In this document: piece by piece, positions 3,905-52,143 of the stretch
Position numbering within the stretch: the first letter of the stretch is position 1
Layout: every line of letters begins with the position of its first letter
Assembly (NCBI GenBank): GCA_958510825.1
Contig: OY294044.1
Span: 79,902,895-79,966,894 of the forward strand
DNA from: Brachypterus glaber
Taxonomy: Eukaryota; Arthropoda; Insecta; Coleoptera; Kateretidae
Direction of reading: 5' to 3'
Length of the DNA: 64,000 bases
The notes under the pieces: generated by a model
The model's input: only the letters and a program-made list of their open reading frames with translations
Databases searched by the model: none
Told to the model about the DNA's origin: nothing
Program-made: the position numbers and the translations under genes

Positions 3905-4690
3905 ATTTTTATCTTTTTTTTTTTTTCCTGTTTTTTTTTTTTATTTTTTGGTGGGGATCGAAGGAATTTTAGGGAAGGATGATTATTGGAAAAAAGGATT
4001 ATAAGTTGATATTATTGTAATTTAGAAACTTGTTTAAAACTTTAATCAGTTCTGTATTTAAATTTGCTAGCACTGTTGCCATATTCAGAGGTTTTTCTAT
4101 ACCCAATTGATGAAGAATGTTGTACATTTCAAAATTCGGAGACATATTTATCGGACACTCTAGGAAGATGTGGTCCAGATCTTCCTCCATACCACATTCA
4201 CAATAAGGATTTGGTATCCTATTGATCCTGTGTAGATGTTTCTTAGTTAGGCAGTGACCCGTTCTCATCCTGATAATAGTTGTAATGTGTCTTCTGTCGA
4301 TATAATTGGTTTTTGTAAACCATGGTTTTACTGGTAGGATCGGTTGTATACCTTTGTACCATTTTCCTTTAAGTTCGGTAGATTCTTCCCATTCTTTCTT
4401 CCATTTTTCTGTGATATTCTTCTTTACAACTGGTTCGAATTCGGTTGTATTTAACTTTATAGGGTAAGGTACTTTTAGATTACATCCAACTTTGGCTAAT
4501 CCATCAGCAGTTTCATTTCCTTTTATTTTTTCGTGTCCTGGAATCCAGGCAATTTTTATATTTATTCCTTCTTCTTTGGCCACTAGGATTAGTCTTCTTG
4601 TATTTAGTCTCTGCTCATACTTCTGCGTCCCGACTAAATGCGTCCTCCATTTTGATTCCAATTGTCCAACATAAAGTAAAAAAAATATAT
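3905..4690 (-). mobile_element. 5'-truncated LINE with RNase H tail
   Basis: On the minus strand the coding fragment at 3999-4661 is followed by a short 3' UTR and A-rich tail (T runs at 3911-3945 on the plus strand). The upstream end is cut near 4680, as usual for target-primed insertion that stops early. RNase H after RT is found in the I/R1/LOA group of LINEs, which is the likely affiliation. No clear target duplication was seen. Confidence 0.75.
3999..4661 (-). pseudogene. LINE pol C-terminal fragment: partial RNase H plus cysteine-rich tail
   Basis: A 220-codon open stretch. At residues 40-57 it has the RNase H motif WIPGHEKIKGNETAD, with conserved His43 and final Asp53. Near residues 158-172 is the YCECG...DHIFLECP cysteine-histidine cluster that commonly ends such proteins. 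Endonuclease, RT and the first half of RNase H, including its earlier acidic residues, are missing, so it cannot act alone. The frame is open to the truncation point, so it has decayed little. Confidence 0.8.
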
Positions 4691-11008: not shown

Positions 11009-12700
11009 TCAAACACCATATCTTTCAGGAGGCTTCACATTTCTTTCAGATCTTCGTAAAACAGTATTTTCTGAAGAACTTAAGGAACTTAACTGTACGT
11101 CGTTTTTCATTTGTTTAAATTTTTTATTTAATATATTGCATTCTATTTCCAACGGAAAAACTCTTTGAAGAGGCCTTAAAACTTCGCCATTCGAAGTTTT
11201 CAGTCGGGCTATTCTACTTATGCCATCTCTTCCAGGTATAAGTTCAACAATATAAGCAAGAGGCCAATCCATTCTTTTAATATTATCATTACCAATCAAA
11301 AGAATATCTCCTTCTTTAATGTTCTTAAACTTTTTTGCTTTTCCAAACAACGCCAGATTTCCCAAATACTCGCTACGAAATCTTCTTTTGATATTTTCTT
11401 TTATTCTCTGAACATATCGATAATGTCTATTTAAATATCCCTTTTCAATAATATCGATATCTGGTACTCCAACTTCTTTTATTTCATTTAAAAACATATC
11501 AGGAGTTAAAACTGTAAGATCCTTACTATCCTCAGATAAATATGTAAGGGGTCTATTGTTTATCGTAGACTCACAGTCACAAAGTACTGTCAACAATTCT
11601 TCAAAATTTAAACTTGCCTTTCGTAGATTTTTCCTTAGTAAATCCTTTACTAATCTTATTAACCGTTCCCACCAGCCACCCCACCAGGCAGCTGTAGGCG
11701 GATTAAATCTCCATTCAAACTTTTGAATGTTACTAAAATCTGATAATTTATTCCAATCTAGTTGTCTGAACAAATTTTCACTTCCCACAAAATTTTTTCC
11801 ATTATCAGTATAAATTATTGAAGGTCTGCCACGCCTACTTATAAACCTTCTTAATGCTTGTAAAAACACATCAGTTGATAATGAAGAAATCAGTTCTAAA
11901 TGTATGGCTCGATAAATAGCACAGGTAAATAAACAAATCCATACTTTGTTACCAGAACGAAGATACATTGGACCTGCCACATCAATACCAGTTACTTCAA
12001 AAACTAAAGCATCTCTTACCCTACTCTCAGGTAAAGGTATGGGTGGGGTTTCGATATTTTGAGCCGTATACCTTTTACAAATAGAGCACTTGAAAATTAT
12101 TGACTTTATATATTTTCTACTTCTTAAAATCCAAAATCGTTCTCTCAAAATACTGATCAAACCCTGAACACCAACATGAAATGATTTTTTATGCTGTGTA
12201 AAAATCAATCTTTCAACTACAAGATGATTATAAGGTAGTACAACAGGATAACGAAAATCAGTTGTATCATCTCTGTCAGAAACTTTGGTTTTAATCCTGA
12301 TAACACCATCACTATCATAAAAAGGGCATAGCGTAGAAAGTCTACCATTTTTTAATCCATCAGGAAAAACTTCTTCTTGAATAAGTCTAAAAATCATTTT
12401 CTCGGCTGACTTTATTTCTTCAAGATTTAAGTGACTTGTTTTCTTAGAATTTTTGTTTTGGCAATTAAATGTAAATCTTCTAACCCATGCAACTAAATGA
12501 ACAATCTTATCATAATTAGAAAAATAACTATAATACCATAAATATCCATCCTTATTTCTCCCACACAAAAAAGAAGAAACGACAGTTTTCTTTCTTTCAA
12601 GATTAATATCTTCTTCGTCGTGAGAATAAGTTTGAGATGGCCAATTATCTGGTGATTTCAATAACCAACAAGGACCCATCCACCATTTAATTTTCAACAA
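11009..12700 (-). CDS. BEL/Pao pol C-terminal part with integrase
   Basis: 563 codons. It opens with the WWMGP...SPDNWP stretch that in BEL pol lies between RNase H and integrase. Integrase follows: an HHCC-type zinc site (His170, His175, Cys205, Cys208), then catalytic Asp240 (GIDVAGP), Asp299 (YTDNG) and Glu345 (WWERL), about 45 residues between the last two as is usual in this family. The C-terminal region around GDILLIGND and LARL..SNGE matches the domain (DUF5641 type) found after BEL integrases. It stops just before the polypurine tract. The first codon is not ATG. In the parent this would be part of one gag-pol frame, and here the upstream 60% of pol is deleted, so translation of this part is uncertain. 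The integrase itself looks intact. Confidence 0.88.
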   Translation of the reverse strand: MLKIKWWMGPCWLLKSPDNWPSQTYSHDEEDINLERKKTVVSSFLCGRNKDGYLWYYSYFSNYDKIVHLVAWVRRFTFNCQNKNSKKTSHLNLEEIKSAEKMIFRLIQEEVFPDGLKNGRLSTLCPFYDSDGVIRIKTKVSDRDDTTDFRYPVVLPYNHLVVERLIFTQHKKSFHVGVQGLISILRERFWILRSRKYIKSIIFKCSICKRYTAQNIETPPIPLPESRVRDALVFEVTGIDVAGPMYLRSGNKVWICLFTCAIYRAIHLELISSLSTDVFLQALRRFISRRGRPSIIYTDNGKNFVGSENLFRQLDWNKLSDFSNIQKFEWRFNPPTAAWWGGWWERLIRLVKDLLRKNLRKASLNFEELLTVLCDCESTINNRPLTYLSEDSKDLTVLTPDMFLNEIKEVGVPDIDIIEKGYLNRHYRYVQRIKENIKRRFRSEYLGNLALFGKAKKFKNIKEGDILLIGNDNIKRMDWPLAYIVELIPGRDGISRIARLKTSNGEVLRPLQRVFPLEIECNILNKKFKQMKNDVQLSSLSSSENTVLRRSERNVKPPERYGV

Positions 12701-13640
12701 ATTTTTTACATGTTACATCAAAACCAGAAGTTGCTAGAGTTACACGCTCCTCATTTTCAACCTCCTTTCTTACAAATGCCATCAAATTATCCAACCGAAC
12801 TTTCAGTGTGGACTCAGTATCATATGAGCTACTTCTTTGCCATACTCTAATCAAATCTTCAGGAAGACAAGACTCAACAAGGGGATAAAGTATAGCAGCA
12901 CACGCATCGGAAGTAACTCCTAACGAATCTAAAGCTCGCAGTTGGGACTCCATTTTATCATATAGCAATGCAATATTTGTTTTTGAATTCAAATTATTCA
13001 AAATAAGTTTTAATAACTCTCGAACATAAACTTCGACCAACAAATCGTTGCGACCAAATCGGTCTTTTAAACTTTGTATAACTTTGGGATAATTCTCATC
13101 AATTGGAGGATAACTATCAACAAGTTGGCGAGCTCTGGAGTTCATTATAGTAGATTGGATCAAATATTGAAACTTGTCCTCATTTGGAATGTCTTCATCA
13201 CCATCTATTCTTTGAAACTGACTCCAAAAGTTAAGCCATTCTTTTACATCACCACCAAATCTTACCAATTCTATTGTTGGAAGCTTTAATTTTCTTTTCG
13301 AGCGACTTAAACTGACTGATTCCTCAACATTTTCTTTGTTTAATACTCGTTCAACTCTTGCTTTCAGTTTATAATATTTTAAATTATAATTATCAGCTTC
13401 TAAAATTAGAGTATCTCGTATATTTTGAGAATTTTTCTCGTTATTTTCGGTTTCCAACAATAATTCTAACATTTGACCATCATAATCTGTGATTACCTCT
13501 ATTTTCTGGCGTAAAAGACTAAAGTTACCTTCAATATCACAAATGTTAATCTTAGATTTATCAAAATCAGCAACGATTTCATCATAAATTCTATCAAAAG
13601 AAATCCTCTGTAATCGTAGTCCCTCCTTCACCTTTTCCAT
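12687..13640 (-). CDS. BEL/Pao gag, truncated
   Basis: Starting from the ATG at 13640 (MEKVKEGL) it is about 317 codons; the frame is open for 14 codons further upstream into the leader. The region KLKLPTIELVRFGGDVKEWL followed by FWSQF is the DUF1759-type core of Pao/BEL gag, with a charged coiled-coil-like N-terminus before it. The protein ends abruptly after VTCKKFVEN at the deletion junction, so the usual C-terminal zinc knuckles and protease are missing. The following integrase frame is offset by +1. Confidence 0.85.
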   Translation of the reverse strand: MEKVKEGLRLQRISFDRIYDEIVADFDKSKINICDIEGNFSLLRQKIEVITDYDGQMLELLLETENNEKNSQNIRDTLILEADNYNLKYYKLKARVERVLNKENVEESVSLSRSKRKLKLPTIELVRFGGDVKEWLNFWSQFQRIDGDEDIPNEDKFQYLIQSTIMNSRARQLVDSYPPIDENYPKVIQSLKDRFGRNDLLVEVYVRELLKLILNNLNSKTNIALLYDKMESQLRALDSLGVTSDACAAILYPLVESCLPEDLIRVWQRSSSYDTESTLKVRLDNLMAFVRKEVENEERVTLATSGFDVTCKKFVEN

Positions 13641-13650
13641 ATCTGCTTGT

Positions 13651-13666
13651 CCTGTCACGGTCGCCA
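13651..13666 (-). promoter_or_regulatory. BEL primer-binding site
   Basis: TGGCGACCGTGACAGG on the minus strand, three bases after the 5' LTR. This is the position and sequence type used by BEL elements to bind the tRNA primer of reverse transcription. The tRNA identity was not determined. Confidence 0.75.
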
Positions 13667-13669
13667 AAA

Positions 13670-13855
13670 TAATAAAACACAAGCGGATTCTGACCTACCC
13701 GGTCTACAGTTCAGAAAAGGGAATCGGTATCTTCTATAAAAATTATATTTTAAATACAGACTCAAATAATATTGACAGTATCTATCAACTTCAAAAAGTA
13801 ACCATTATTAATTAAAAGGTAAAAAAGTAAATACTGGTACTACTGAAATCCAACA
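13670..13855 (-). repeat. BEL element 5' LTR
   Basis: 186 bp, identical by eye to the 3' LTR at 10785-10970, followed on the plus strand by the target duplication ATGTT. Confidence 0.93.
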
Positions 13856-14398
13856 ATGTTATTTCCTAGCACTAACAAAACTTATTAAATGGATAAAGTC
13901 GCTTTCTTGGAATACTGTCGTTATAATTTACTAGTCAGTTAGTTCGATACACATTATCGGATTGGTACAGACAAGATATCTGGAGGCTTCCGGTTTCTTC
14001 ACTTCCGGTGTCCTCAAATTGTTGAAAATGAATTTATGTGGGAATGTATGTCTAGGGGGGTCGAGTTTTTCGTTATTTTTTTGATATCTATTCGCGTTTT
14101 CAAGATACAAGCAAAAATGTGTGTGTCTTTAAAACCATTGATCCATTGTAGAACCAGGTTCATTCTTATAAAAACCTGATTCATTGGCAAGAAATTTAGT
14201 TCAAAATCTTATTAAAACTTCTTAAGATTAAACAAGAAAATTTTAATAAGAAATTCTTCATTTTATTCTTATTAAGAATAAAATGGCGACTAAACTATTT
14301 TTTTAGGTATATTAAAGGTTTTAATTATATTCTTTTAGTTATCGCTTATAATTTGTGTATTTTTTAATAGAGATTTATTAACTTTTTTTATTTTCCCA

Positions 14399-15312
14399 AG
14401 CTTTAGAGTTCTGCAGTTATAATGTGTTATAGTGTCGGACTAAGGGGGCGGCCAGGGGCTGTAACAACTTGAAAAGCAGACCATTTTTCACTTTTTTTTT
14501 CGTGTTCTTTTATTTCACCACAGTAAAAAATGTATTTTGGTGTTAAATTTCTACAATTACTTTATTATCGGATTTTGACTGAACTTGATAAAAAATTGGG
14601 CATAACATGCTTTATAATAAAACACAAATATATTTTCATTCCTAACATAAAAAAAAATAATTTTAAAAAATCGATCAAAGTGAACGTTTTCGGATTCATC
14701 ACAGCATTCTCTAAAATTGTGCGCTAAGGATCCTAAAATACGTAAATGCTATTTTTTTTTAAAATAAATTCTATTTCAGGGGGTGCCAGTCAAAACAGTG
14801 GGGACGCTTTCATTTTAGTGATTTGCTTTCCGTTATCGCTTACAACGAGGAAATATTTTAAGAGAGCATCATGAACTTGTGTTCTACTAAGCTTTAGAGT
14901 TCTACAATTATAATGCAAAGCTCAAAATCCAGAGCCGAACTAGAGAAGGGTGGCCAGGGGCGATAACAACTTGAAAATCAGGCCATTTTTTTTTCATGTT
15001 TTCTTAGTATTTTACCATAAAAAAATATATTTATGTAAAATTATAAAGGATATTATGCCTCTGATTTTTTATTTAATTTAATCAAAAGCTAATAATAAAG
15101 TAATTTTAGAAATTTAACATCAAACTACATTTTTTATCATGGTAAAATACTAAGAAAACACGAAAAAACGTGAAAAAGTGGTCTGCTTTTGGAGATTTTA
15201 TCGCCCCTGGCCCTGGAATTTAAGCTTAAGCTTATAATTGTAGAACTCTAAAGCTTAGTAGAACACAAGTTCACAATAATCCCTTAAAATATTTTCTCGT
15301 TATAAGCGATAA
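14399..15312. repeat. Foldback repeat with an extra direct half-copy
   Basis: Segments around 14830-15000 and 15130-15305 are inverted copies (TTAGAGTTCTACAATTATAA, GGCCAGGGGCGATAA and TTTTCTTAGTATTTTACCAT with complements). A third, direct copy of the half-unit (TTTAGAGTTCTGCAGTTATA, then GGCCAGGGGC) lies at 14400-14500. GGATCCT occurs at about 14728 and 15434. No reading frame of interest. Confidence 0.6.
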
Positions 15313-16249
15313 AAGTATGTAACTAAACTCAAAGCGCCCCCACTCTTTTGCTTGGCGCCTCCTGAAATGCATTTATTAAATGAAAAATTGAATAATATGT
15401 GTATTATACGTATGTATAATATACGTATTTCAGGATCCTTAATGCACAATTTAAGGGCATGCCGAGATGATATTTTTGCACGTTCATGACCAGACAAAAA
15501 TTTTGAGCACTTATACGTTACATTTTATCAATTCCAACCGAAGTTACAGATGTTTGAAAAAAAAGCTAATTTTGCGGTCACTCTTTGTCGCCTTATGAGT
15601 CCGAAAAAGTTTACTTTTTTGGGCTTGTACAGTTCATTTCAACAAAACTGGAAAAGTGGGGTTATAAAAAAATTACATTGTGAACTATCTTTCATTTGAC
15701 AAATATTTGTTTACTTGTTAATAAATTTAGTGTCTATATTGTCACATCAATGTCAAAGTCAAAAAATGTTGGTGTATTTTTTTAAAATTGGGAGAGATAA
15801 AGCAGAAAAACAAGAATACTCGAAGAATACTGGTGTAAAACCCATAATTATAATTTTTAAATTAAGGAACTATGAGGAATACCTAGTTGTAGGAGACCAA
15901 TATACTAGTAGTGTTTTTTAAAAATAAAGGTATTTAAAACAAGTTTATTAGATACAAAATATATTGATAAGGGGATTTAATAATAGACATTTTAGAATAG
16001 GAATATTTTAGAGCAGAAATACAGTAATTAACAATAGAGATACGCTTCAAAATCCAAATAGTATTTACTAAACACAAATGCATAGAATAACATATGATTT
16101 TTGACATGGTTAATGTAACCTTATTTTTCAAACAGGCATAACCCCATTTAAATAATCCACATTCACACAACTAAATTTTACCCAATTGCGAAAATCAAAA
16201 ATATTGAGATCCATAATTTAACGTACGTATACTTATAGTGAAGAGATAT
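15313..16249. other. AT-rich intron stretch, no gene
   Basis: Holds the block CCGAAAAAGTTTACTTTTTT (about 15601), which recurs near 63267, and a 36-bp segment (15632-15667) that is an inverted copy of the sequence just before PTCD2 exon 3. Otherwise only short chance frames. Confidence 0.5.
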
Positions 16250-16868
16250 TATTTTAAAAAATCAAACTTTTAGTCATCATTCACTTTATTAATAATTTAG
16301 GTTAGTTACCGGTTTCGATTATCATCGTCAGACTACAAGAAATTACACAAGTTAGAGATTATTTTAAGAAAAACAAAGTTTATCTTACCTAGCCAAAAAT
16401 ATATAAAAATACTATATCCATAAAAGGTCAAAAAAGGTCAAAAACAACCAACATTTATAAATGTAAAACACAGTAACGTAACGTCCACTTCAATTTACAA
16501 GAAAATATAAACATAATATTAACAATAAAATCACAAAACACGTGTTTAAACATACAGTATATAAATAATAAATGTCAAAAATCAAGAGTTTTTTTTTTTT
16601 TTAAATCTATAATCAATATTAGGGATGTTCTAAGCTAAGGTGTGTAAGAAAAAGAAGTACAAGAAGAAAAGGAAAAGAAAAGCAGAAGAAGGAAAGAAAA
16701 CGAAAAGGAAGAGGAAGAAGAATAGGTATAAGCATTTTAAGGGATGGGTAAAATATTTTTAAACACTATTCAACACGAATCCTGAAAAATTGAAATTAAA
16801 ATATTAAGAAATGTTATTTCTTAAAATTTCAATCTACTTATTGCAATAATAATACACAAATAGATACA
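16250..16868. repeat. Penelope left arm (outer part)
   Basis: Inverted copy of about 26625-27243. It contains a hammerhead-like motif on the minus strand (16313-16331) and the purine tract. The TACA at 16865-16868 is the errantivirus target duplication; the arm resumes at 24719. Confidence 0.88.
16309..16333 (-). ncRNA. Hammerhead-ribozyme-like motif, left Penelope arm
   Basis: The minus strand has the CTGANGA box (CTGACGA) and a GAAA box eight bases later, followed by CCGGTAAC. Hammerhead motifs are known in Penelope-like element repeats. Stem II could be only about two base pairs here, so self-cleavage is doubtful without testing. Confidence 0.35.
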
Positions 16869-17117
16869 AATTATCTACCGAGTTCCCGAAGTTAGGTTTT
16901 TAAAAAGGAAATAAATTTATTAATTTATTTAGATAGAAAAATACAAGTTCGTTTATTGATCAAAGCTAAGTACAGACTGAAGTTTTGGAATATACATTTT
17001 AGGTATCTGAGGTGAAATGCTTACAGAGCTATTTCCTAATAAAGAAATGTTTATAAATTATAATAAGCAGAAATGATATTTAATATAATAAAGGTGAGTG
17101 ACTGCAGGTCGTTAACT
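16869..17117 (-). repeat. Errantivirus 3' LTR
   Basis: 249 bp. In element orientation it begins AGTTAACGACC and ends GATAATT, the AGT...AATT form seen in gypsy-type errantiviruses. It has one extra A compared with the 5' LTR (GGTGAAATGC against GGTGAATGC). The env stop codon lies in its first bases. Confidence 0.93.
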
Positions 17118-18783
17118 CCTCCCTCCTTTGAATGAAGCTCCCCCTGGGAGGGAAATTTTCTTCCCCTGTGGTTGAAGTTCCATTTCCTCTGGAGTGCTTT
17201 CGCTTGGTTTTCTTTGAAGTTGTTTTCTCAAATATTTTGTGAGAAAAAAGGCACATACGCTGACCAGAATGATATAGAGTGGGATGGTCATGTGTAATGA
17301 AAAGTTTTGTTTTTCCTCCTGGACTGGGATGATGTTGTTAAGCGGGATATTGCTTAAGGCCTTTAGGGTTCTTAGGCCAATTTTAAAGTTTCTTACTTGC
17401 TTTTGGGCTGGTTTGAATGATAACCCGTTGAGTAAAAGTGGTTTTCCATGGGAAGTTTGTTGGAATTCCAGTTTTTCTTTCCGGAGGTTTATTTGGCAGT
17501 CTTTTCCGTTTATTAGGAAAATTCCTTTTAGGTTATGTACTTCGGTATCGCTGCTACATTGGACTTGTAGCTTTTCTTCTGCTGGAAAAACGGCTAGATA
17601 TTGGTTTATTTCTGATATGATTTCGATGTGGTTTTCGGGAATGTCTACTTTTGTATAGGAGCAGGAGTGTGAGACTTCTTTCAGGATGATGTCTCTCTCG
17701 CAGGTTATATCCTGATTTGCTTGGAAGTGATTGGGACATTGGTACAATTTACCTTTCGTACAAATGTCATTTAGAGGTATAGTTATGTCTTTTGACATTA
17801 AAATATAATTTATTTTAGGAATGGTTGTAACAAACTCAGAATTAAATTTAGTGGGAATAGGGATTAAATGGTTTAAGTTAAAATCTTTTTCATAATTTAT
17901 GGGAATAGAAAGTAAATAAGTAACTTTTAGGGGTTCAATTTTACAATGTAATTTAATAATATTTTCAAAATCTAAAATATTTTCATAACTTACTTCAAAA
18001 GGAAGTTGGCTATGATAATGATCCGAAATTTTCTTTAATTCATAGAAAAGCTCGTGAGTTTTTATAATGCTAGGATGGAGGGAACCCATCTTGCAAAAAG
18101 TTAGCGAGTTTTCAATATCTACTAAAATATCTAAAATTGAGTTATAAACTATTAAAATTTGATTATGTAACTCTTGTGAAAAAAGAACAAATAATTCATT
18201 TTGGACTTTTTCAGTTAGGAACTCATTAAGTTGCAAAATTTTCTTTTTCAGCAAATTTTCATTATACTGAATATCTAAAATTGTATTGTTAAAATTTTTG
18301 ATAATATTTTGGTTAATTGAATATTCATTATTTAATTGAGTTTGAAAATTTATTTGATTATTTTTTATGTGAGCTAAAATACGACTTATTTTTTCTCCGA
18401 AATCGTTATCTAAATTTCCTGTGACTGATCGTATAACACTGCCGAGGCCGTTTATTAAACCTCTTCTATCTCTCTTAAAACTATTTTTATATTCTAAGCT
18501 TATGTGACTAAATTTTTCTCTAATTTTATCCTTAGTGAAAATAATTATTTTATTATAATTTTCTAACTCTAAGTTATATAAGGTTTTATTTAAAGTTACT
18601 GTACTAAGTTTACTATACTCTACGTTTAAATTTTCGAATTGGTCATACAGGGGTTTAAGGTCATAAAAGTGTACAAGGGTGTGTTCCGTACGTTGTAGTT
18701 TTGCAGGGCCAAGGTTGACGGGGAGTATTCCCAAGTTTTGGGTGATATTCTTTATGTCGGCTGTCCATCCAGATGCGAAGGAC
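17112..18783 (-). CDS. env: Errantivirus env (fusion-type envelope glycoprotein), main exon
   Basis: Open frame from about 18783 to the stop at 17112-17114 inside the LTR; 540 codons if counted from the TTG at 18734, with no ATG at its start. Visible features: a basic furin-type site (KRDRR, residues 87-91 of that count) followed by a Gly-rich hydrophobic segment as in the baculovirus-F-like envelope proteins of errantiviruses, several cysteines in the second half, a membrane segment at about 483-501, and a 39-residue cytoplasmic tail. The missing start is best explained by splicing: acceptor AG at 18784-18785 and a leader donor at 24295. The protein would act in the membrane in infection or cell-to-cell transfer. 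No internal stop or frameshift seen. Confidence 0.85.
17118..17129 (-). promoter_or_regulatory. Errantivirus polypurine tract
   Basis: AAAGGAGGGAGG on the minus strand directly abuts the 3' LTR start; this is the position for priming plus-strand DNA synthesis. It is overlapped by the env coding end. Confidence 0.85.
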
Positions 18784-21700
18784 CTGGAATGGGTTCATTA
18801 TTAGTTTTTTCGTCCGTCAAATTTCTAAAGTTATAGGGTTTTTTCCTAGGTCTTTTAATATTTGAGAGGTGAATTTTTTCTACAGTATTGTGGTGGGTTG
18901 GGGTAATTTTGGCCGTTTTAAGATCAGGGTCAAGACTTCTAATTTTTTCTGGTTTATATTTATTTTTTGTTTTACTTTGTTTTTGCTTATTTTTAACAAA
19001 AACTTTGTCAGGGATTTGGGGCAAATCTTCCCTGTTTTCGTTACACTTATTAATAACTTTTTCTTTAGATTTTTGAAGTCCTTCATTAATTTTTTGGTAT
19101 AGTAACTTAACTTTTTCTTTGTGACTTAAAATATAATTATTCATAATTTGTTTATCTAATTCTAAACTAAAAGGGGAATTTGTTTCTAAATGACCTGTCA
19201 AAATTTCTGAGGGTTTTAATTTTGTTGAACTGTGTATCGTATTGTTGTATGCTAAAATTGCGTAATTTACCTTAATTTCTACAGGTTCATTTTTAAATTC
19301 CTTTTGATTGTTAAATAATCTGATATGCTCTATTAGGGTGGAGTGAAAACGTTCAAGATTTGAATTCGAGTCGGGGTGTTGAGAACTTATAAAGTGTAAT
19401 TTTATTTTATGGAGCTCTAGAAGTTCTCTGACGAGACCACCGGTAAAAGAACCGCCATTATCCGAGACAATTTGTTCAGGGATTGTATGGTGTGTGAAAA
19501 ATTTAACTAAATTGTTAGCCACCTCAATATTTGTTAACGTGTTTAATTTATAAGCCTGTGCGTATTTACTAAACGCATCAATTATGGTTAGAAATTTAGT
19601 TTTTTCAAGGCTTATGCTGTCTATATGCAAGGTTTGAAAGGGTTTAACAGCTGTGGGGGTAATATTAAATTTTAGATTAAGAGGGTTTCTATCATATTTG
19701 GTGATTTGACAAACATCGCAATTATTTATGTAAGTTTGTATCGACCTTCGTTGATTAAGCCAATAGTATACTTCTTTTATACGATTTTCGGTTTCATCAA
19801 GTCCCCTATGATTTGTTTTCCCTTCGTGGTAATCTTTGATAAATTGAACTATTTCTATGTCGTCCTGTACGTCAATTAAAAATTTCGTACACCTAACTAG
19901 GTTAATTTGAGAATTTTTAAAATGAGTTTGTAGGACTGTGCTAAATTGCTTATAAATTGGGTCTTCGAAATAAACGTAATATTTAATATTTGGTACAAAA
20001 AATTCTTTCATTATTTTAATTATGTCATTTTCAAAATTATTTTTTGATATTTGCACAAACATTCTTTGTTTGGTTTTGTATAGGGAAATTATAAAGGGTT
20101 CTATTGGTGCCATTTCCACTTGTGATACAACAACTTGGTGTTTGCCATAGTTTACAGGGCAAGTTATTATGGGAATATTAATTATGGGGTGTTCCGCTTG
20201 ATTTGAATGTACTGTATTTAAGTCGGTATTGTCTGGTTCTCCAAAGTCTATAAGGTCATTATTCGTATTTTCATGGTCACCGGGTTCAACTATAAGAGAC
20301 ATATTATCTGCGGTAATATGATCCTTATCTTTGTTTTCGTTATTTAGTTTCTGATAAAATTTTTCCATGTAATTCTCTAGGGCGTTATCGTTTGTTACGT
20401 TTATTTCTACGCTAGACAGTTTGTCTAAGGTGTTAGCTATTTTATGAGTTTTTGAAATGTCAGTGTCGTAGATTAAAATTTTAATTTCAGAATTTTTAAA
20501 AATTAATTTTATTAAATTAAATACTATGTTCCAGTCTAGTTTGTCAAGACCGGATGCTATTTTAGGCATTGCTATAATGTTATCATTAAAATCTAGACAA
20601 AGTTTTTTCAGACTTATTAGTGCTACAATAACGGAGGTATAGGTGGGTTTATCCCTAAAAGTGCCCTTAGTAATAAGATAATAAATATTTCTTTTGGGGT
20701 ATCTTAGATAAGCCACCTCTCCTATTTTTTTATTTTGGGTTTTTAGCGTATTAATATGATTAAACTTTTTCCTAAAATCTAGGGCTATGCCTTTACTCAT
20801 CGTTAGGCATTCTGAAACACAGTGTGCTAGTGAAATATTTTCGTTACAGTTAAATAGGTTATCTTGCAAAGTTGTAACATTTGGGTTTTCGACAGACATG
20901 TTATTTTTAATTATTTTACTAATGACTGGGTGTTGCTCTATAATTTGGGAGTACGACTCTAAATTATTAATTTCAACTCTGCTAAGTGCGTCTGCATTTG
21001 TGTTTAATGAACCTTTTTTGTAGCTGACTTCATAGTCGTATTCTTCAAGTTTTAAGCGCCATCTTGTGAGTTTTGAGTCCGGTTCTTTTAGAGAAAAGAG
21101 CCATTGGAGTGGTTTATGATCTGTCAAAATTTTAAAGCGTCTGCCATACAGATAGGGGCGAAAGTATTTCACGGCCCAAACTACAGCCAAAAGTTCCCTT
21201 TGGATTGTGCTGTATTTAGTCTCTGCAACATTGAGAGTTCTGCTGGCGTAAGCTATTGGCAGATCTTTTCCAGCTACCTGCTGCGAAAGGACCGAACCAA
21301 TTGCGAAACTACTGGAATCAGTACTAAGAACGAAAGGCTTAGTGAAGTCAGGATATTGCAAAATAGGTTCATTTGTCAATAATGTTTTGCACAAATTAAA
21401 ACATTTAATATAATCTGGGTCGTTTACGTTAACTTTGTTACCCTTTTTTAAACAGTTAGTAAAAGGTTTCGTTATTTTAGCGAAGTCTTTTATAAATTTT
21501 CTGTAGTAGCCTAGCAATCCTAAAAATGCTTTGATTTCTTTTTGAGTCTTGGGGATCGGGTAATTTTCAATTGCTTTTATTTTATCGGGGTTTGGTTTTA
21601 TGCCTTCTGGGGTAACTATATGTCCAAGAAAAGATATCTCCCTTTTTAGAAAATCGCATTTATTAATTTGTAATTTAAAATTTGCATTGCGTAATCTTTG

Positions 21701-23104
21701 AAAGACTTGTCTCAAGTGGTCCAGATGCTCCTGTAAGCTGGAGCTAAAGACTATTATGTCATCCAGGTACACCAGGCAAAATTTATTGAGTATACCGCGT
21801 AGCAGGGTGTCCATTGCGCGTTGGAGCGTGGTTGGTGCCGATTTTAGGCCAAATGGCATTCTAAGAAATTCGAAGTGGCCACCTTCAGTAGAAAAAGCAG
21901 TTTTCTCTATATCTTCAGGTGCCATTTCTATCTGATGAAATCCGGATGCCAAATCTAATGTAGTGAAGTAAAGACAGCGTCCCAACTTATCCAAAAGGTC
22001 GGTAATATTAGGAATTGGGTATTTATCCCCTATGGTTTTATCATTGACCTTTCGATAGTCGATAACAATACGCCATCTAGGTTCCCCACTAGCATCAGGT
22101 TTTTTTGGAACTACCCATATTGGAGAACTCCACGGACTGTAAGAGGGGCGTATAATTTTTTGTTTAAGAAGGCTATTTATTTGTTTACGCACCTCTTTTC
22201 TATGTATTTCGGGATATCTATAGGTTTTCGAATAAACAGGAATTTCATCTGTAGTTCGAATGTGGTGCTTAACTTTACCCGTATAAGTTAGTACATCCCC
22301 TTCAATATAAATTAAATCGCTATATTCCTTAATTAAATTTAAAATGGCTTGTTTTTCTTCCGCATTCATGTGGTTCATGCGTAAAGAAGAAAAATCAAAC
22401 GAGCCTTTTTGGAACATAAAGTTATTAAAATTTTCACAAGGGCGGTGTTCATATTCGTTGAACTCTTCCACCCCAATAGAAATATCGGAATCAAAAGAAA
22501 TATTTTTTTCGCTACGATTTACAATACTACAGTTTGTAGTAAAATTTTTTACGTTACAAACGCATTCTGGTATTTCCAGACCGTTAATTTTCGTGTAAAG
22601 GATGAAAACATCACCCTCTTTAATATTTTTAATTTTTAATTTAATTATTTGTTCCGTCCCTGACGGGACTTCAATGCAATTCAAAGAATTAGCTACGTTA
22701 AAAAAATGAATTTTTATCCTACGTGTAGGCGTAATTAATACGTTATTGTACAAGTCAATTACCGCATTAAGTTTCCTAAGGTTATCTAGACCTAAGAGAA
22801 TATCGAAATTTTTATGAAAATTAAATAGATGAAATTTTAATTCTTTGCCGTAAAAATTTGGGATCTTTGTACTATGCTTTTCCAAAGAACTTCCATGAGC
22901 ACTAGAAATTAAAAAAGGATCATCGATTATATTTTCTGAAAAAAATCTTTTTGCAATTTCGGGCTTAACGAAACTTTTCGTGGCACCGTTATCGATCAGA
23001 ACTTTTAAATTATGTTCGGGAAAAATAACATATGATAGCTCACTTTTAGAGTCCGTTAGGCTCATTAAATTAATTTTTTCTAATTTTTCGAGGCTAGATT
23101 TCCT
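18752..23104 (-). CDS. pol: Errantivirus pol: protease, RT, RNase H, TARG1-like macro domain, integrase
   Basis: 1437 codons from the ATG at 23065, plus 13 more if entered by -1 frameshift from gag at 23104-23110. Domains by residue from that ATG: protease near 22-35 (IDNGA, where DTG or DSG is usual); RT about 290-480 with YLDD at 433-436; RNase H about 565-700 with Asp573, Glu624 and Asp649; macro domain about 729-868; an acidic linker to about 965; then the usual pre-integrase region and integrase, with zinc site His1080, His1086, Cys1116, Cys1119 and catalytic Asp1149, Asp1202, Glu1238 (35 residues between the last two). Without the macro domain and linker it would be of ordinary errantivirus length. 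No stop or frameshift inside, so it may be active. It overlaps the start of the spliced env exon. Confidence 0.93.
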   Translation of the reverse strand, partial: RKSSLEKLEKINLMSLTDSKSELSYVIFPEHNLKVLIDNGATKSFVKPEIAKRFFSENIIDDPFLISSAHGSSLEKHSTKIPNFYGKELKFHLFNFHKNFDILLGLDNLRKLNAVIDLYNNVLITPTRRIKIHFFNVANSLNCIEVPSGTEQIIKLKIKNIKEGDVFILYTKINGLEIPECVCNVKNFTTNCSIVNRSEKNISFDSDISIGVEEFNEYEHRPCENFNNFMFQKGSFDFSSLRMNHMNAEEKQAILNLIKEYSDLIYIEGDVLTYTGKVKHHIRTTDEIPVYSKTYRYPEIHRKEVRKQINSLLKQKIIRPSYSPWSSPIWVVPKKPDASGEPRWRIVIDYRKVNDKTIGDKYPIPNITDLLDKLGRCLYFTTLDLASGFHQIEMAPEDIEKTAFSTEGGHFEFLRMPFGLKSAPTTLQRAMDTLLRGILNKFCLVYLDDIIVFSSSLQEHLDHLRQVFQRLRNANFKLQINKCDFLKREISFLGHIVTPEGIKPNPDKIKAIENYPIPKTQKEIKAFLGLLGYYRKFIKDFAKITKPFTNCLKKGNKVNVNDPDYIKCFNLCKTLLTNEPILQYPDFTKPFVLSTDSSSFAIGSVLSQQVAGKDLPIAYASRTLNVAETKYSTIQRELLAVVWAVKYFRPYLYGRRFKILTDHKPLQWLFSLKEPDSKLTRWRLKLEEYDYEVSYKKGSLNTNADALSRVEINNLESYSQIIEQHPVISKIIKNNMSVENPNVTTLQDNLFNCNENISLAHCVSECLTMSKGIALDFRKKFNHINTLKTQNKKIGEVAYLRYPKRNIYYLITKGTFRDKPTYTSVIVALISLKKLCLDFNDNIIAMPKIASGLDKLDWNIVFNLIKLIFKNSEIKILIYDTDISKTHKIANTLDKLSSVEINVTNDNALENYMEKFYQKLNNENKDKDHITADNMSLIVEPGDHENTNNDLIDFGEPDNTDLNTVHSNQAEHPIINIPIITCPVNYGKHQVVVSQVEMAPIEPFIISLYKTKQRMFVQISKNNFENDIIKIMKEFFVPNIKYYVYFEDPIYKQFSTVLQTHFKNSQINLVRCTKFLIDVQDDIEIVQFIKDYHEGKTNHRGLDETENRIKEVYYWLNQRRSIQTYINNCDVCQITKYDRNPLNLKFNITPTAVKPFQTLHIDSISLEKTKFLTIIDAFSKYAQAYKLNTLTNIEVANNLVKFFTHHTIPEQIVSDNGGSFTGGLVRELLELHKIKLHFISSQHPDSNSNLERFHSTLIEHIRLFNNQKEFKNEPVEIKVNYAILAYNNTIHSSTKLKPSEILTGHLETNSPFSLELDKQIMNNYILSHKEKVKLLYQKINEGLQKSKEKVINKCNENREDLPQIPDKVFVKNKQKQSKTKNKYKPEKIRSLDPDLKTAKITPTHHNTVEKIHLSNIKRPRKKPYNFRNLTDEKTNNEPIPGPSHLDGQPT
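20462..20881 (-). other. Macro domain (TARG1/OARD1-like) within pol
   Basis: Pol residues about 729-868. Recognisable blocks are SLAHCVSE, M.KGIALDFRKKF, KKIGEVAYL, YYLITK, DKPTY, AMPKI and SGLDKLDW, in the order and spacing of human OARD1/TARG1, which removes ADP-ribose from proteins. The TARG1 catalytic pair Lys84/Asp125 corresponds to Lys800 (codon 20666-20668) and Asp841 (codon 20543-20545), 41 residues apart in both. One Gly of the MGAGIA loop is Ser here. That the domain binds or hydrolyses ADP-ribose is inference from family knowledge. Confidence 0.85.
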
Positions 23105-24285
23105 AAAAAATTTTCCGAATTTTCATTTTCCGGAGTTTTATTTGATTTTCCCAAATGTACGTTAAAATTTTCTGGGGGAAATTCCACCATTGGTTCGTTT
23201 TGCAAAGTGAACAACTCTTCTACCGTATAGTTAGGGCTGTTTTGAGTTAAATTTTGTCTAAAATAATTATTTGTTCTATGTGTATTTCGAGTAGATACAC
23301 TCATTGGCGTTGGTTTAGGCAACGGCTGGTTAGGGTTAGGTTTGAAAACATTTATATTTTTTGAACCAGAGCCGGGTTGATTAGAAAAATTCTTATTTTG
23401 ATTTTGGAAATTTTGGTTGGGATTAAAGTTTTGCCTAGCATTATGGGCAAAATTTGTTATTTGTAGGGGCCTTGTTGTTTGTGGGGGGTAACGATTTGGA
23501 CTTTTTGGATTTCTAAAATTTCTCTGCGGGATCTGTCTATGATTTTCCCGAGGATTTTCCGTAACAAATTGAAAATCATTAGTTAGCATATTAAGTGCAG
23601 AATTTAAATCATCAGGATTTTTCGTCCGCATTAAGGATCCTATAGGTTCTCGTAGGCCCCTTAGTAGAACTCTTAATGCGTATTTTCGCAGATATCCTGT
23701 TATTATAGGTTTTTCATTATCATCCCCATGGATATTTAAAAACGCTATTTGTAAATTGAGGTACATAATAATTCGGTGATAAAAATCAAAGACAGATTCC
23801 GAAAATTGTTGTCGTTGGCCAGTCATCTCTATGCTTAAACTAAACACATCACGTTTATCTGAATAAGTGTTAGTTAAAGCTATTTTAAGGTCGTCCCAAG
23901 TACTTACTATGCAAGCAGATATTTTTATTGCTGCATCGCCTTTTATTTTGGAAATTATACTTGACATAAGATATTCGTTTTGAAAGTCTGTCGGGTCTGT
24001 CGTATTATAAAATTTATTTACGAGTTTTTCGCAGATTTCTATGAATCTAGGGAGAAGCTCTGTTTCTCCCCGAAAATCTGGGATCATATTAATATAGTCC
24101 TGTTTAAGGACGGGTACAACAGGTTCGTTTCCTGTAGACATATCGTTAATATTAAGGTTTTCAAATGAATTTAAAATTTCTAAACTAAAGTTATCAATTA
24201 GGGTTTGTTCTAAATCTAATTCTGAGCCTGCACTTGAGCTAGAACTTGAGCTTGAAATTTCTTGTCTAGGACCTCTAAAAAACAT
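23080..24285 (-). CDS. gag: Errantivirus gag
   Basis: 401 codons from the ATG at 24285, which lies a few bases after a strong splice-donor sequence. The N-terminus is Ser-rich and acidic. The middle (about 60-230) is the helical capsid-type region of Gypsy gag (DFRGE...LPRFIE, YSDKRDVFSLSIEM). The C-terminal 150 residues are rich in Asn, Pro, Phe and Gln (FNPNQNFQNQN). There is no CCHC zinc knuckle, which errantivirus gag often lacks. It ends at TAG, 30 bases after the slippery site used to enter pol. Confidence 0.9.
   Translation of the reverse strand: MFFRGPRQEISSSSSSSSAGSELDLEQTLIDNFSLEILNSFENLNINDMSTGNEPVVPVLKQDYINMIPDFRGETELLPRFIEICEKLVNKFYNTTDPTDFQNEYLMSSIISKIKGDAAIKISACIVSTWDDLKIALTNTYSDKRDVFSLSIEMTGQRQQFSESVFDFYHRIIMYLNLQIAFLNIHGDDNEKPIITGYLRKYALRVLLRGLREPIGSLMRTKNPDDLNSALNMLTNDFQFVTENPRENHRQIPQRNFRNPKSPNRYPPQTTRPLQITNFAHNARQNFNPNQNFQNQNKNFSNQPGSGSKNINVFKPNPNQPLPKPTPMSVSTRNTHRTNNYFRQNLTQNSPNYTVEELFTLQNEPMVEFPPENFNVHLGKSNKTPENENSENFLGNLASKN
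23104..23110 (-). promoter_or_regulatory. Programmed -1 frameshift site between gag and pol
   Basis: The minus strand reads T TTT TTA in the gag frame, a canonical X XXY YYZ heptamer. The -1 frame is open from there to the pol ATG at 23065 and beyond, while gag stops shortly after. The gag and pol frames differ by exactly -1. Confidence 0.8.
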
Positions 24286-24290
24286 AGGTA

Positions 24291-24327
24291 CTTACAGTAG
24301 AATTGTGAAGATCGTCCCCTGGTACAT
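24291..24327 (-). other. Leader splice donor and upstream ATG for spliced env mRNA
   Basis: ACT|GTAAGT on the minus strand: exon ends at 24296, intron begins at 24295, just before the gag ATG. With the acceptor before 18783, the ATG at 24325-24327 falls in frame with env and contributes 10 codons plus two bases that are mostly hydrophobic, resembling the start of a signal peptide. Removal of gag and pol by splicing to express env is established for gypsy-type errantiviruses. The exact sites here are inferred. Confidence 0.65.
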
Positions 24328-24454
24328 TGGCTGTGATGTTCACTCACACTCCTGGATGTCCTGGCTGGTCCTGTCTTCACGGAATTTTTTTCTGGTTCTT
24401 TTTTCTCTGGTAAATCGCCGAACCGATACGAATTTTTGCTTAATTCGCCCAAAG

Positions 24455-24470
24455 AAATACCGACTGCGCC
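24455..24470 (-). promoter_or_regulatory. Errantivirus primer-binding site
   Basis: GGCGCAGTCGGTATTT follows directly after the 5' LTR (last LTR base T). The first 13 bases agree with the 3' end of insect tRNA-Ser, apart from one position by my recall. Several errantiviruses use tRNA-Ser. Confidence 0.65.
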
Positions 24471-24718
24471 AATTATCTACCGAGTTCCCGAAGTTAGGTT
24501 TTTAAAAAGGAAATAAATTTATTAATTTATTTAGATAGAAAAATACAAGTTCGTTTATTGATCAAAGCTAAGTACAGACTGAAGTTTTGGAATATACATT
24601 TTAGGTATCTGAGGTGAATGCTTACAGAGCTATTTCCTAATAAAGAAATGTTTATAAATTATAATAAGCAGAAATGATATTTAATATAATAAAGGTGAGT
24701 GACTGCAGGTCGTTAACT
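24471..24718 (-). repeat. Errantivirus 5' LTR
   Basis: 248 bp; identical to the 3' LTR except for one missing A. The promoter should lie here; no clear TATA box was located. Confidence 0.93.
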
Positions 24719-24780
24719 TACATAAATGTATGCACATATATAAAACAACCGCAAGTATTACAAGAATAAGCTAAAAAGTG
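24719..24780. repeat. Penelope left arm (inner part)
   Basis: Resumes with TACATAAATGTATG and ends CTAAAAAGTG at 24780, matching the inner end of the right arm at 26558. The RT gene stop codon (24758-24760) lies inside it. Confidence 0.85.
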
Positions 24781-26218
24781 TAGTGTTAGAACGGGGGAAC
24801 GTAAGCTGTTTATTTAAAATATTTTCAGGATACTTATGAGCAAAACTACTAATCTCTAATTCTTCATAAAGATCCAATTTAACTCCACCATCTTGTATAT
24901 GTAGAATTTCAAAATTAGAATTCCGCTCGAATGTATGTGTTTCGTCTCTTAGGTGATTTAAAAAATGTGAGAACTTCTTTTCTTCTAAATGTTCGCCCAA
25001 TCTAACACCAAAAGATCTTCCCGTTTGTCCAATATAAAAACACTCACAAGAGTTACAGTTGATCTTATAAACTCCCGATTTTGACAACTTTTCAATAGGG
25101 TCTTTGTTTTTAATCAAGTGGGTTTTAATATTAGAAAGTGGTTTAAATGAGACTTTAAATGAACCCCTAAATAAATTTGCAATACTTTGACTAATTGGAC
25201 CTATGTAAGGAATTGATATATATTTAATTTCATTTTTGATATTTAACAAAGAAGTGAGGTTGCTGTTAGCCAATTTAATTTGTTTTCTTCTTAATAGTTT
25301 GTTTATCAGTTCTGGGTTGTAGCCATTCATGTAAGCAATGTATTTTATTGTATTTAGCTCTGTTTTAAAATCTATAGAGGAAAGAGGTAACGATAGTAAA
25401 CGATGAATCATACTATGAAATGCAGCCATCTTGTGGTTAAAAGGGCTGTTGGAAGTAAAAGGAATAACATGATCAGTCTGTGTCGGTTTTCTAAAAATGC
25501 TAAACGAATGCCTATTGTTAACCCTAGATACAGTCAGATCCAAGAAATTAATCTTATTACTTTCTTCAATTTCAAAGGTTAAATTTATACTATCATTCAA
25601 AGTATTTAGAAAATCAAAAAAGACAAAAAATTGCATTAAAGTACCTCTCCAGTATAATAAAATATCGTCAACATATCGAAGCCAGTACTTTATGAAAAGC
25701 AGACATGAATGACCAGAACCAAAAACTAAAGATTCAAAAAAATTCATAAATATTTCTGCCAGTATTGGACTCATTGGTTCACCCATAGCTAAACCGTCTT
25801 TACTCCTATAGTGCTTACCATTAAAAGTAAAGAAATTCTGTTCGGCACAATGTTTGATTAAAGCTTTAAAAGATGATCCTTCATTATCGGATAAGTCGCT
25901 ATCAGTTATGAGTTCATCCACTATACTTAAGACTTTTTTGATTGGAACATTGGTAAACAAATCTTTCACATTCAAACTAACGAAAAAACCTTCCTTACCA
26001 AGGTCCAAGTCCTTGACCTTATTAACAAACTCGATTGAGTTCTTGACTGATCTCTTTGGTTTAAATATATCCAATTTTATAAATGTTTTGTTTAAATACT
26101 TCGATAATTTATAAGTGGGAGCATTTACACAACTTACTACCGGTCTGTAGGGTATACCTGCTTTATGTATTTTTGGCAAACAATAAAGTCTTGGGGTTAC
26201 GGGATTCATTACAGCCAA
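24758..26218 (-). CDS. Penelope-like RT with GIY-YIG endonuclease
   Basis: 486 codons; first codon is TTG, and the true N-terminus is the broken segment upstream (26219-26557). RT blocks: YCLPKIHK near 12-19, motif A at 81-92 (SLNVKDLFTNVP), KDGLAMGEPMSP at 140-151, catalytic YVDD at 182-185. The C-terminal GIY-YIG nuclease has GVY at 382-384 and YIG at 395-397 with the cysteine cluster CNSCEC before it and Arg406 after it, as in Penelope proteins. Motif A has Asn83 where the catalytic Asp is expected, so the RT is probably dead. It is antisense to PTCD2 and ends within the inverted arm. Confidence 0.9.
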   Translation of the reverse strand: MAVMNPVTPRLYCLPKIHKAGIPYRPVVSCVNAPTYKLSKYLNKTFIKLDIFKPKRSVKNSIEFVNKVKDLDLGKEGFFVSLNVKDLFTNVPIKKVLSIVDELITDSDLSDNEGSSFKALIKHCAEQNFFTFNGKHYRSKDGLAMGEPMSPILAEIFMNFFESLVFGSGHSCLLFIKYWLRYVDDILLYWRGTLMQFFVFFDFLNTLNDSINLTFEIEESNKINFLDLTVSRVNNRHSFSIFRKPTQTDHVIPFTSNSPFNHKMAAFHSMIHRLLSLPLSSIDFKTELNTIKYIAYMNGYNPELINKLLRRKQIKLANSNLTSLLNIKNEIKYISIPYIGPISQSIANLFRGSFKVSFKPLSNIKTHLIKNKDPIEKLSKSGVYKINCNSCECFYIGQTGRSFGVRLGEHLEEKKFSHFLNHLRDETHTFERNSNFEILHIQDGGVKLDLYEELEISSFAHKYPENILNKQLTFPRSNTTLFSLFL

Positions 26219-26557
26219 CTTAAGATCGGTATATTTGTTTATAAATGTTTTGTGTGTGTTTATTAATCAGTGTTTAAACAGTTTTTCTATTATAGCTAAT
26301 AGCTGGGTCTATTTTCGGATCGTATTCTTTAAAACCGTTATCTGTCAAGAACTCATTAACCTTGTCAACGTAGTCAGTTTTGTCTAAGACAACCAAACAT
26401 GAACCTTTATCTGCCTTTGTAAGAAATAAATTTTCGTTTTTTATCTTTAATTTAAGTTGTTTTAAGATTTTATCATCTTCAGTTTTAGACGACGAATTTA
26501 CTCGACTAAATTCATGTTGTAGTTTTCTTAGGCAACTATTGCGTGTATTATCTAAAT
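26219..26557 (-). pseudogene. Broken N-terminal part of the Penelope RT gene
   Basis: The minus strand encodes an RT N-terminal segment (NLFLTKADKG...VVLDKTDYV) up to TAA at 26274-26276. The downstream frame is offset by one base and has TGA at 26267-26269. So a frameshift and a premature stop separate this part from the main frame. Confidence 0.75.
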
Positions 26558-27243
26558 CACTTTTTAGCTTATTCTTGTAATACTTGCGGTTGTTTTATAT
26601 ATGTGCATACATTTATGTATCTATTTGTGTATTATTATTGCAATAAGTAGATTGAAATTTTAAGAAATAGCATTTCTTAATATTTTAATTTCAATTTTTC
26701 AGGATTCGTGTTGAATAGTGTTTAAAAATATTTTACCCATCCCTTAAAATGCTTATACCTATTCTTCTTCCTCTTCCTTTTCGTTTTCTTTCCTTCTTCT
26801 GCTTTTCTTTTCCTTTTCTTCTTCTACTTCTTTTTCTTACACACCTTAGCTTAGAACATCCCTAATATTGATTATAGATTAAAAAAAAAAAAAAAAAAAA
26901 AAAACTCTTGATTTTTGACATTTATTATTTATATACTGTATGTTTAAACACGTGTTTTGTGATTTTATTGTTAATATTATGTTTATATTTTCTTGTAAAT
27001 TGAAGTGGACGTTACGTTACTGTGTTTTACATTTATAAATGTTGGTTGTTTTTGACCTTTTTTGACCTTTTATGGATATAGTATTTTTATATATTTTTGG
27101 CTAGGTAAGATAAACTTTGTTTTTCTTAAAATAATCTCTAACTTGTGTAATTTCTTGTAGTCTGACGATGATAATCGAAACCGGTAACTAACCTAAATTA
27201 TTAATAAAGTGAATGATGACTAAAAGTTTGATTTTTTAAAATA
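26558..27243. repeat. Penelope right arm (uninterrupted)
   Basis: 686 bp, inverted copy of the two left-arm parts joined. It shows the site before errantivirus insertion near 26600-26630 and has a longer poly-A run (26881-26904) than the left arm. Confidence 0.88.
27161..27187 (+). ncRNA. Hammerhead-ribozyme-like motif, right Penelope arm
   Basis: CTGACGA at 27162-27168, GAAA at 27177-27180, then CCGGTAAC. Same motif as in the left arm, opposite strand. Short stem II; activity uncertain. Confidence 0.35.
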
Positions 27244-45754: not shown

Positions 45755-47125
45755 CTAACATAAAAAAAATGGAGAGATTCTAGCAGAAATTCTGGGCACG
45801 TTTATTTGCAATAAGTTTAATAGCTCTATACAGTCAATCTTATTATTGATCAATTTATACAAAAATATAATTGATGCTTGTTGACGTCTTACAGATAACG
45901 ATTGAAACGAGAAATCATTTAGCAAATTCACATTAGGTATCCCTCTAGCTGGATACTCACCATATTTCCTATGATACAGATATTTGAGGTAACGTCTTTG
46001 AACGTTTTCTAAAGCAGTAATAAGAACAGCATAATTAGGGCACCAAACTACCGAACAATATTCCAAATGTGATCTGACATAGGACATATAGAGCAAATTA
46101 ACAGTTTTAATGCTAAAACATTTAGTATTCCTAATAATAAACCCAAGTGATTTGTAAGCTTTGGATACAATGTTGTTTCTGTGTGGATGAAAAGATAATT
46201 TTTTGTCAAAAGTGACACCAAGATCCTTGATGGTATCAGGTCTGTCCAAACTGTGCCCATCGATCTTGTAGTCAAAAGTGATGACATTTAATTTTGTAGT
46301 AAAACTGAATATGTGACATTTATCAGCATTTAAGGGTAACTTGTGTCCATTGCACCATTTAACTACAGTATCTAAGATATCTTGTAGTTGAATACAATCA
46401 TTTAAACTTTGGATTATCTTATATAACTTCATATCGTCTGCGAAAAGAAGACCATATACATTAATCAGGATCATTATTAGATCATTAATAAAAATGATAA
46501 ATAACAGTGGACCCATAATGGATCCTTGCGGAACACCCGACGTTGCAATGTATATGAAGGATTTTATACCATTGCACTTAGCATATTGCATTCTGTTATA
46601 TAAATAAGTAATCATTAGACATAAGAGAGGAATTGAAAAACCGAATATGTCGAGCATCATGATAAGAATTCTGTGGTCTAGTCTTTCGAAAGCCTTAGAG
46701 AAGTCAGTGTATATACAATCAGCTTGAAGAAAATTGTCTATACACCCAGATAGAAACTGAGTGAAACAGGCAAGATTGCTAGAAGTGGACCTACCTTCCA
46801 TAAATCCATGCTGGCTCGGATGTATGAGATGTTTAACATGGGAATATATATTTTTATGTAGTAGAATTTCATACACCTTAGAGAAGTTGTTTATTATAGC
46901 TATAGGTCGGTAATTACGAATATCGGATCTGTTTCCTTTTTTAAAAACTGGACAAACCTTTGATATTTTCCAACAAGCAGGAAAAACGCACGTTTTAAGT
47001 GATAGATTAAAAAGGAGAGCTAAAGGTTTGGAAAATATACAAGCACAATCTTTAACTAAAAAAGAAGGAATACCATCAGGGCCCATGGTAAGCTTAGGCT
47101 TTAATTTTTTTGTAGCCTCACACAC
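45755..47125 (-). pseudogene. LINE reverse transcriptase
   Basis: 456 codons. RT blocks: GPDGIPSFLV near 15-24, RNYRPIAI near 70, catalytic Asp141 in YTDFSKAF, SGVPQGS at 196-202, FADD at 228-231. The C-terminal region has the YVRSHLEYCSVVW...ALENVQRRYLK signature of CR1/Jockey-type LINEs. The RT frame itself is intact, but it is separated from the upstream coding region by a frame change near 47250 and lacks the endonuclease. I call it a pseudogene for that reason. Confidence 0.85.
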
Positions 47126-52070: not shown

Positions 52071-52143
52071 GGAGGCATAGCGTAGTGGCTAGCGCGTATG
52101 CATAGCAAGTCTACTATCGTGAGTTCGATTCTCACTGGCGCCG
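52071..52143 (+). tRNA. tRNA-Ala(AGC)-like sequence, probably a pseudogene or SINE head
   Basis: T arm GTGAGTTCGATTCTCAC has a perfect 5-bp stem; D arm GCGTAGTGGCTAGCGC folds well; the anticodon loop reads ATAGCAA (AGC, Ala). The acceptor stem GGAGGCA/TGGCGCC has two mismatches and the anticodon stem is imperfect. No T-run terminator follows within a few bases, although T6 occurs at about 52150. Confidence 0.45.

Follow-up and report, generated by a model that had tools for sequence, protein, structure and literature searches.

A predicted TARG1-type macro domain in the pol polyprotein of a young errantivirus of Brachypterus glaber

Why should the pol polyprotein of an insect retrovirus contain a domain resembling human TARG1, and how might the domain have come to be there? 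The question is raised by an errantivirus on the minus strand of a 64,000-nucleotide stretch of the genome of the beetle Brachypterus glaber (contig OY294044.1, positions 79,902,895 to 79,966,894), here called the window. A preliminary description, made from the letters of the window alone, had reported some 140 extra residues between RNase H and integrase, likened them to TARG1/OARD1, and proposed that the element had captured a macro-domain gene of its host. The evidence assembled here favors a captured, probably still functional TARG1-type ADP-ribosyl hydrolase, most likely stripping ADP-ribose added by host poly(ADP-ribose) polymerases (PARPs), a reading that we hold with moderate confidence. 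The segment and its critical codons are:

20462..20881, minus strand: TARG1/OARD1-type macro domain, pol residues 729-868 (140 residues)
20882..20962, minus strand: linker upstream of the macro domain, with an IEN-type end that recurs in other families
20666..20668, minus strand: Lys800 codon, counterpart of TARG1 Lys84
20543..20545, minus strand: Asp841 codon, counterpart of TARG1 residue 125

The 140 residues are stop-free on the minus strand and lie in the pol frame, and the plus strand across the same interval is closed; translation reproduced the frame, the coordinates and every sequence block named in the preliminary description. The likeness to human TARG1/OARD1/C6orf130 (4j5r, 4j5s) covers the whole fold, with 42% identity, and both catalytic positions: a sequence search matched TARG1 residues 2-138 (E 5e-30), and the predicted model of segment residues 1-140 superposes on residues 13-152 of the TARG1 chain, with 140 of 140 residues aligned. 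Structural and sequence alignments alike set two residues of the segment that are 41 positions apart, K72 (pol 800) and D113 (pol 841), against TARG1 84 and 125, as had been claimed. The Pfam Macro model matched below its cut-off (E 0.11), and membership was therefore decided by the match to TARG1 itself. The predicted model shows a macro fold of minimal size, about 140 residues, and whole-domain similarity, the catalytic Lys84 and an acidic residue at position 125 place the segment in the ALC1-like class. Chance resemblance is excluded by the E-value of the TARG1 match together with the whole-fold alignment. Identity as a DarG antitoxin was also considered and rejected, the DarG model scoring 38 bits against a cut-off of 250.

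That the segment is additional to pol is seen from the distance between the end of RNase H and the start of the H2C2 domain, which is 363 amino acids here; among the 113 relatives in which it was measured, the median is 174. A protein-level repeat flanks the macro domain (LSRVEIN before, LSSVEIN after); in the DNA, a search for a scar of capture found no repeat of more than 7 bases. On its sequence and predicted fold, the segment is a captured TARG1-type macro domain of the ALC1-like class. The part of the earlier proposal that traced it to this host's own gene gained no support: no host OARD1 gene was found in genome searches that each scored at most about 150 candidates, and the loci read from these sat in repeated elements.

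The element that carries the domain is organized as follows, in its own 5' to 3' order:

24719..24722, no strand: upstream copy of the target-site duplication TGTA (element sense)
24471..24718, minus strand: 5' long terminal repeat (LTR), 248 nt
24460..24470, minus strand: primer-binding site GGCGCAGTCGG, letters read directly after the last T of the LTR
23080..24285, minus strand: gag open reading frame (ORF), 401 amino acids, assigned by position alone
18752..23065, minus strand: pol ORF, 1437 amino acids, uninterrupted (ORF list and Pfam)
21614..22108, minus strand: reverse transcriptase core RVT_1 (Pfam E 3.9e-37)
21038..21349, minus strand: RNase H, RT_RNaseH (Pfam E 4.8e-40)
19883..20170, minus strand: pre-integrase spacer domain, with a macro-like fold and no macro sequence signal
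19697..19849, minus strand: integrase zinc-binding domain H2C2 (Pfam E 8.3e-13)
19373..19642, minus strand: integrase core rve (Pfam E 5.4e-08)
17112..18734, minus strand: env ORF, 540 amino acids, third ORF
16869..17117, minus strand: 3' LTR, 249 nt
16865..16868, no strand: downstream copy of the target-site duplication TGTA (element sense)

Pfam places protease, reverse transcriptase (RT) and RNase H on the upstream side of the macro domain and H2C2 and rve on its downstream side, so that LTRs, a gag assigned by position, the pol order protease-RT-RNase H-integrase and a third ORF are all present. The LTRs are identical in 248 of 249 alignment columns, the sole difference being one indel, and the closest RT relatives, at no more than 75% identity, include named records from Clastoptera, Callosobruchus, Diabrotica and Diaphorina, all insects. 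Because of the near-identical LTRs, the TGTA duplication, the pol domain order, the third ORF and the insect RT relatives, the element is classified from its sequence as a young errantivirus (insect Metaviridae with env), which bears out what had been described earlier, including the fully open pol. The primer-binding site is presumably of the tRNA-Ser type. The gag ORF had no Pfam match, nor did the env ORF, for which Baculo_F was absent at E 1 in a Pfam scan; PF12259 is present in a close relative, P0092. By motif, env has a furin-like site and a fusion-peptide-like stretch from residue 88 on, and by hydropathy a hydrophobic segment around residue 480, near the C-terminus. The errantivirus adjoins, and apparently lies within, a Penelope-like element (24758-26218, minus strand; flanks 16493-16868 and 26616-27000), which has an RT and, under the cut-off, a GIY-YIG match; a search of 14000-27000 found Penelope-like inverted repeats on both sides of the errantivirus.

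The macro domain is not confined to one element of this genome, which measures 648 Mb. Used as the query of a genome search that scored 150 of 596 candidates, it gave at least 151 matches, at least one copy being counted as two adjacent rows, and 16 matched rows, on several contigs, showed 100% identity. Pieces of 108 macro loci (labeled L) were compared and 14 family representatives chosen, whose macro domains share 39-74% pairwise identity. Three sites are occupied overall: before integrase, after integrase and in a gag-like ORF. In 11 of the 14 representatives the macro lies downstream of RNase H, which a search identified in all 11; in 10 of these linker representatives the macro is also seen to be upstream of integrase, the exception being L097, whose piece does not show an integrase. 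L059 and L065 have it downstream of the errantivirus integrase end, where about 190 residues upstream of the macro match the C-terminal part of relatives' pol (E 2e-87 and 7e-79); at this site in L094 an env-like ORF begins, by eye, just downstream of the macro. The IEN-type stretch directly before the macro is common to several linker families and both pol-C-terminal families.

In L051 the macro forms the C-terminal end of a gag-like protein, tentatively gag (Pfam PNMA, E 0.012). This family accounts for 21 of the fetched loci, 20 of which share the upstream region, and about 60 of 79 matches in one genome search resemble it in frame length and range. Its ends were not found, as no repeats were detected within 3.4-3.5 kb at the six loci tested. 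Both catalytic residues, K and D, persist at 105 of the 108 loci, with a stop interrupting the macro in 14 of those 105; of the other three loci, L025 reads KN, L042 has RD in a broken frame and L075 has a gap. The near-identical LTRs, open pol and 16 fully identical rows agree with the earlier statement that the domain has been retained through recent transposition.

Ratios of nonsynonymous to synonymous substitution rates (dN/dS), calculated by the Nei-Gojobori method, are 0.137 for the macro of L047/L048 (dS 0.20) and 0.112 for that of L051/L052 (dS 0.13), and seven more distant pairs give 0.08-0.16 with saturated dS. The macro domain is under purifying selection.

How the module reached these positions can be approached through its relatives outside this genome (labeled P). 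From 7177 RT hits within the length limit, the 120 closest records were taken, 113 of which span the linker, and a macro was present in P0033 only. There it follows a YMxxFN-like conserved stretch, at a different linker point from the window macro, which precedes that stretch; the two macros are 44% identical, the RTs 71% and the integrases 69%. A tree of 27 macros, in which 10 of the 14 representatives were placed, joins P0008 with this genome's linker and pol-C-terminal families (support 85/90) and P0033 with the gag-type macro (support 81/90), both below star level. A clade of four window-type macros plus P0033 was rejected at p 0.04, which is nominal because the tree had already been seen. 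By sequence, there are at least two macro lineages in LTR elements. The simplest account would be more than one capture and, perhaps, passage of the module from one element to another resident in the same genome, a transfer that we infer. Recombination between the families of L045 and L049, which the tree pairs (support 93/81), was not upheld, the alternative clade of L047 and L049 not being rejected (p 0.227).

Macro domains accompany other retroelement proteins as well. P0009 of Athalia is a single protein with both macro and integrase, the retroviral protease match of P0008 is weak (E 0.049), and a protease is seen by eye in P0018 of Daktulosphaira. An OTU-like domain suspected by eye in P0018 was unsupported by Pfam and PDB sequence searches, whose best rows were SH3 domains (E at least 0.06). 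P0012, P0013, P0016 and P0017 are candidate macro proteins of other retroelements; of the four, only P0017 (PHD, macro, GDSL) has a domain set of the kind seen in ORF1 proteins of CR1-like long interspersed nuclear elements. Separately, P0010, P0011 and P0015 are DNA ligase III-like, with a TARG1-like macro between ligase and BRCT parts (by precomputed domains in P0011 and P0015), and in P0014 and P0019 (Arctopsyche and Rhopalosiphum) the macro is followed, by eye, by a stretch resembling a second, decayed macro. A single-protein scan of IMG/VR found no relative; an alignment scan gave 80 loci (L109-L188) with TARG1/DarG-like macros at 26-42% identity, many on contigs longer than 100 kb, and judged phage-like from contig sizes alone.

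The window also holds features away from the errantivirus:

11009-13682, minus strand: integrase and DUF5641, preceded by a DUF1759 ORF; a retroelement presumed BEL/Pao-like from its domain set
3999-4661, minus strand: possible non-LTR remnant, RNase H and zf-RVT, both under cut-off
45755-47125, minus strand: possible non-LTR remnant, RVT_1 ORF
52071-52143, plus strand: tRNA-Ala (AGC)

Several known systems invite comparison. TARG1 is a free-standing cellular protein, whereas the macro here is a module of retroviral pol. The macro domains of alphaviruses and rubella virus belong to RNA viruses and to another macro-domain class, and are about 10% identical to this one. Non-primate lentiviruses carry a dUTPase between RNase H and integrase; it too was captured from cells and occupies the corresponding position, but it is another enzyme, in other retroviruses. 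P0080, an errantivirus-like pol with 71% RT identity, has a Ulp1-type Peptidase_C48 (residues 1276-1449, E 1.9e-29) at the pol C-terminus after integrase, thus a protein-modification eraser in the slot that the macro occupies in L059 and L065, although it is a protease and not a macro domain. The DarG macro domain (5m3i, 5m3e), by contrast with this pol domain, retains only the dyad lysine according to a passage of PMC7050489. Epsilon-like endogenous retroviruses of fish occasionally include ORFs for macro-domain proteins, according to a review passage (PMC4977317, citing Basta et al. 2009); as here, a retrovirus captured a macro domain, but by that description these are additional ORFs, whereas here the domain lies in the pol linker of insect errantiviruses.

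Retroviral macro capture is therefore already known; no report of an errantivirus or pol-linker macro domain was found in the literature searched, which covered few subscription papers and preprints. Literature on macrodomains and LTR retrotransposons yielded chromatin papers, including macroH2A, and no such fusion; a term search of a zebrafish endogenous retrovirus paper (PMC8672886) met no macro domain passage in the text it covered, and an insect endogenous retrovirus paper (PMC12992720) contains no term starting with macro. A TARG1-type domain in insect retroviral pol, spread over families and in three positions, looks new within that literature.

What the domain does may be approached from its place in pol. 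As pol enters the particle, the macro should be packaged and delivered with RT and integrase. It would then most likely remove PARP-attached ADP-ribose from element proteins, insertion-site chromatin or DNA ends, which would leave cDNA synthesis and integration unhindered; with an eraser next to integrase, PARP marks might be kept off cDNA ends, integrase or target chromatin. RNA viruses are known to counter host ADP-ribosylation with macro domains. TARG1 itself acts on mono-ADP-ribose on acidic residues and on ADP-ribose at phosphorylated nucleic-acid ends (passage in PMC7050489), and most mobile elements misregulated on loss of Drosophila PARP-1, gypsy-type included, go up, according to part of PMC7712786. 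We infer enzymatic activity, packaging, substrate and benefit from sequence-based evidence; the eraser reading is preferred because of the identity, predicted fold, catalytic pair, open near-identical copies, purifying selection, and recurrence in more than one macro lineage and site, with positions on either side of integrase in different families. Taken together, this suggests that the elements use an ADP-ribose eraser against, or together with, a host signaling system.

A number of points weigh against such an eraser. Macro domains can bind without hydrolyzing. The main rival is a reader that would tether the integration complex by binding ADP-ribose where PARPs have marked chromatin or repair proteins. 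Targeting domains linked to integrase are known, chromodomains among them, and the macro lies in pol beside integrase, on either side, in 13 of 14 representatives, a useful place for a targeting module; a pure reader would nevertheless have no need of both catalytic residues, kept in nearly all loci, and one family holds the macro in a gag-like ORF, so that we consider this explanation unlikely. Among the 120 closest RT records, 119 lack a macro, which implies that such elements can dispense with it. Only L047/L048 has unsaturated dS in each of the three segments compared, and there constraint is weaker on the macro (0.137) than on the tail of RNase H (0.049) or on 240 downstream codons (0.028). 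Very close pairs, with few changes, gave 0.335 (L059/L069) and 0.706 (L047/L077), and four macro comparisons had no defined ratio. Derepression after PARP-1 loss is, per its authors, possibly indirect (passage in PMC7712786).

The missing macros and the weaker constraint would also suit a passenger, a merely folded spacer in an insert-tolerant linker. Purifying selection, an active-site pair invariant over 14 representatives despite 39-74% identity, and like domains at three sites in at least two macro lineages argue against such filler, and we give it little credence. An early Ty3/gypsy ancestor might instead have had tandem pre-integrase macros, of which the active one was mostly lost and the decayed one became the spacer. 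The pre-integrase spacer is also present in aligned relatives without a macro; its macro sequence signal is weak (15-17 bits) in the L047/L049/P0009 type and nil in the errantivirus type, where the similarity is of fold only. Such ancient inheritance seems improbable, to about the degree of the reader. An assembly chimera or a host gene adjoining the element is refuted by the identical copies on several contigs, and with one uninterrupted frame and several diverged families its probability is negligible.

A broader extension of the eraser reading, possible but on balance doubtful, is that the TARG1-type module is mobile among insect LTR retroelements, through repeated capture, transfer between families and refitting in gag and before or after integrase, that pol is more widely armed with erasers of protein marks made by the host (the Ulp1-type domain of P0080 included), and that the pre-integrase spacer of Ty3/gypsy elements is the remnant of an older macro. 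The conserved catalytic pair, the several gag-pol fusion points, selection and very young copies make restriction or guidance of insect retroelements by PARPs directly testable. If the extension is true, macro folds would have been taken up next to integrase on more than one occasion, and in insects ADP-ribosylation would be a pathway directed against retroviruses or tied to integration.
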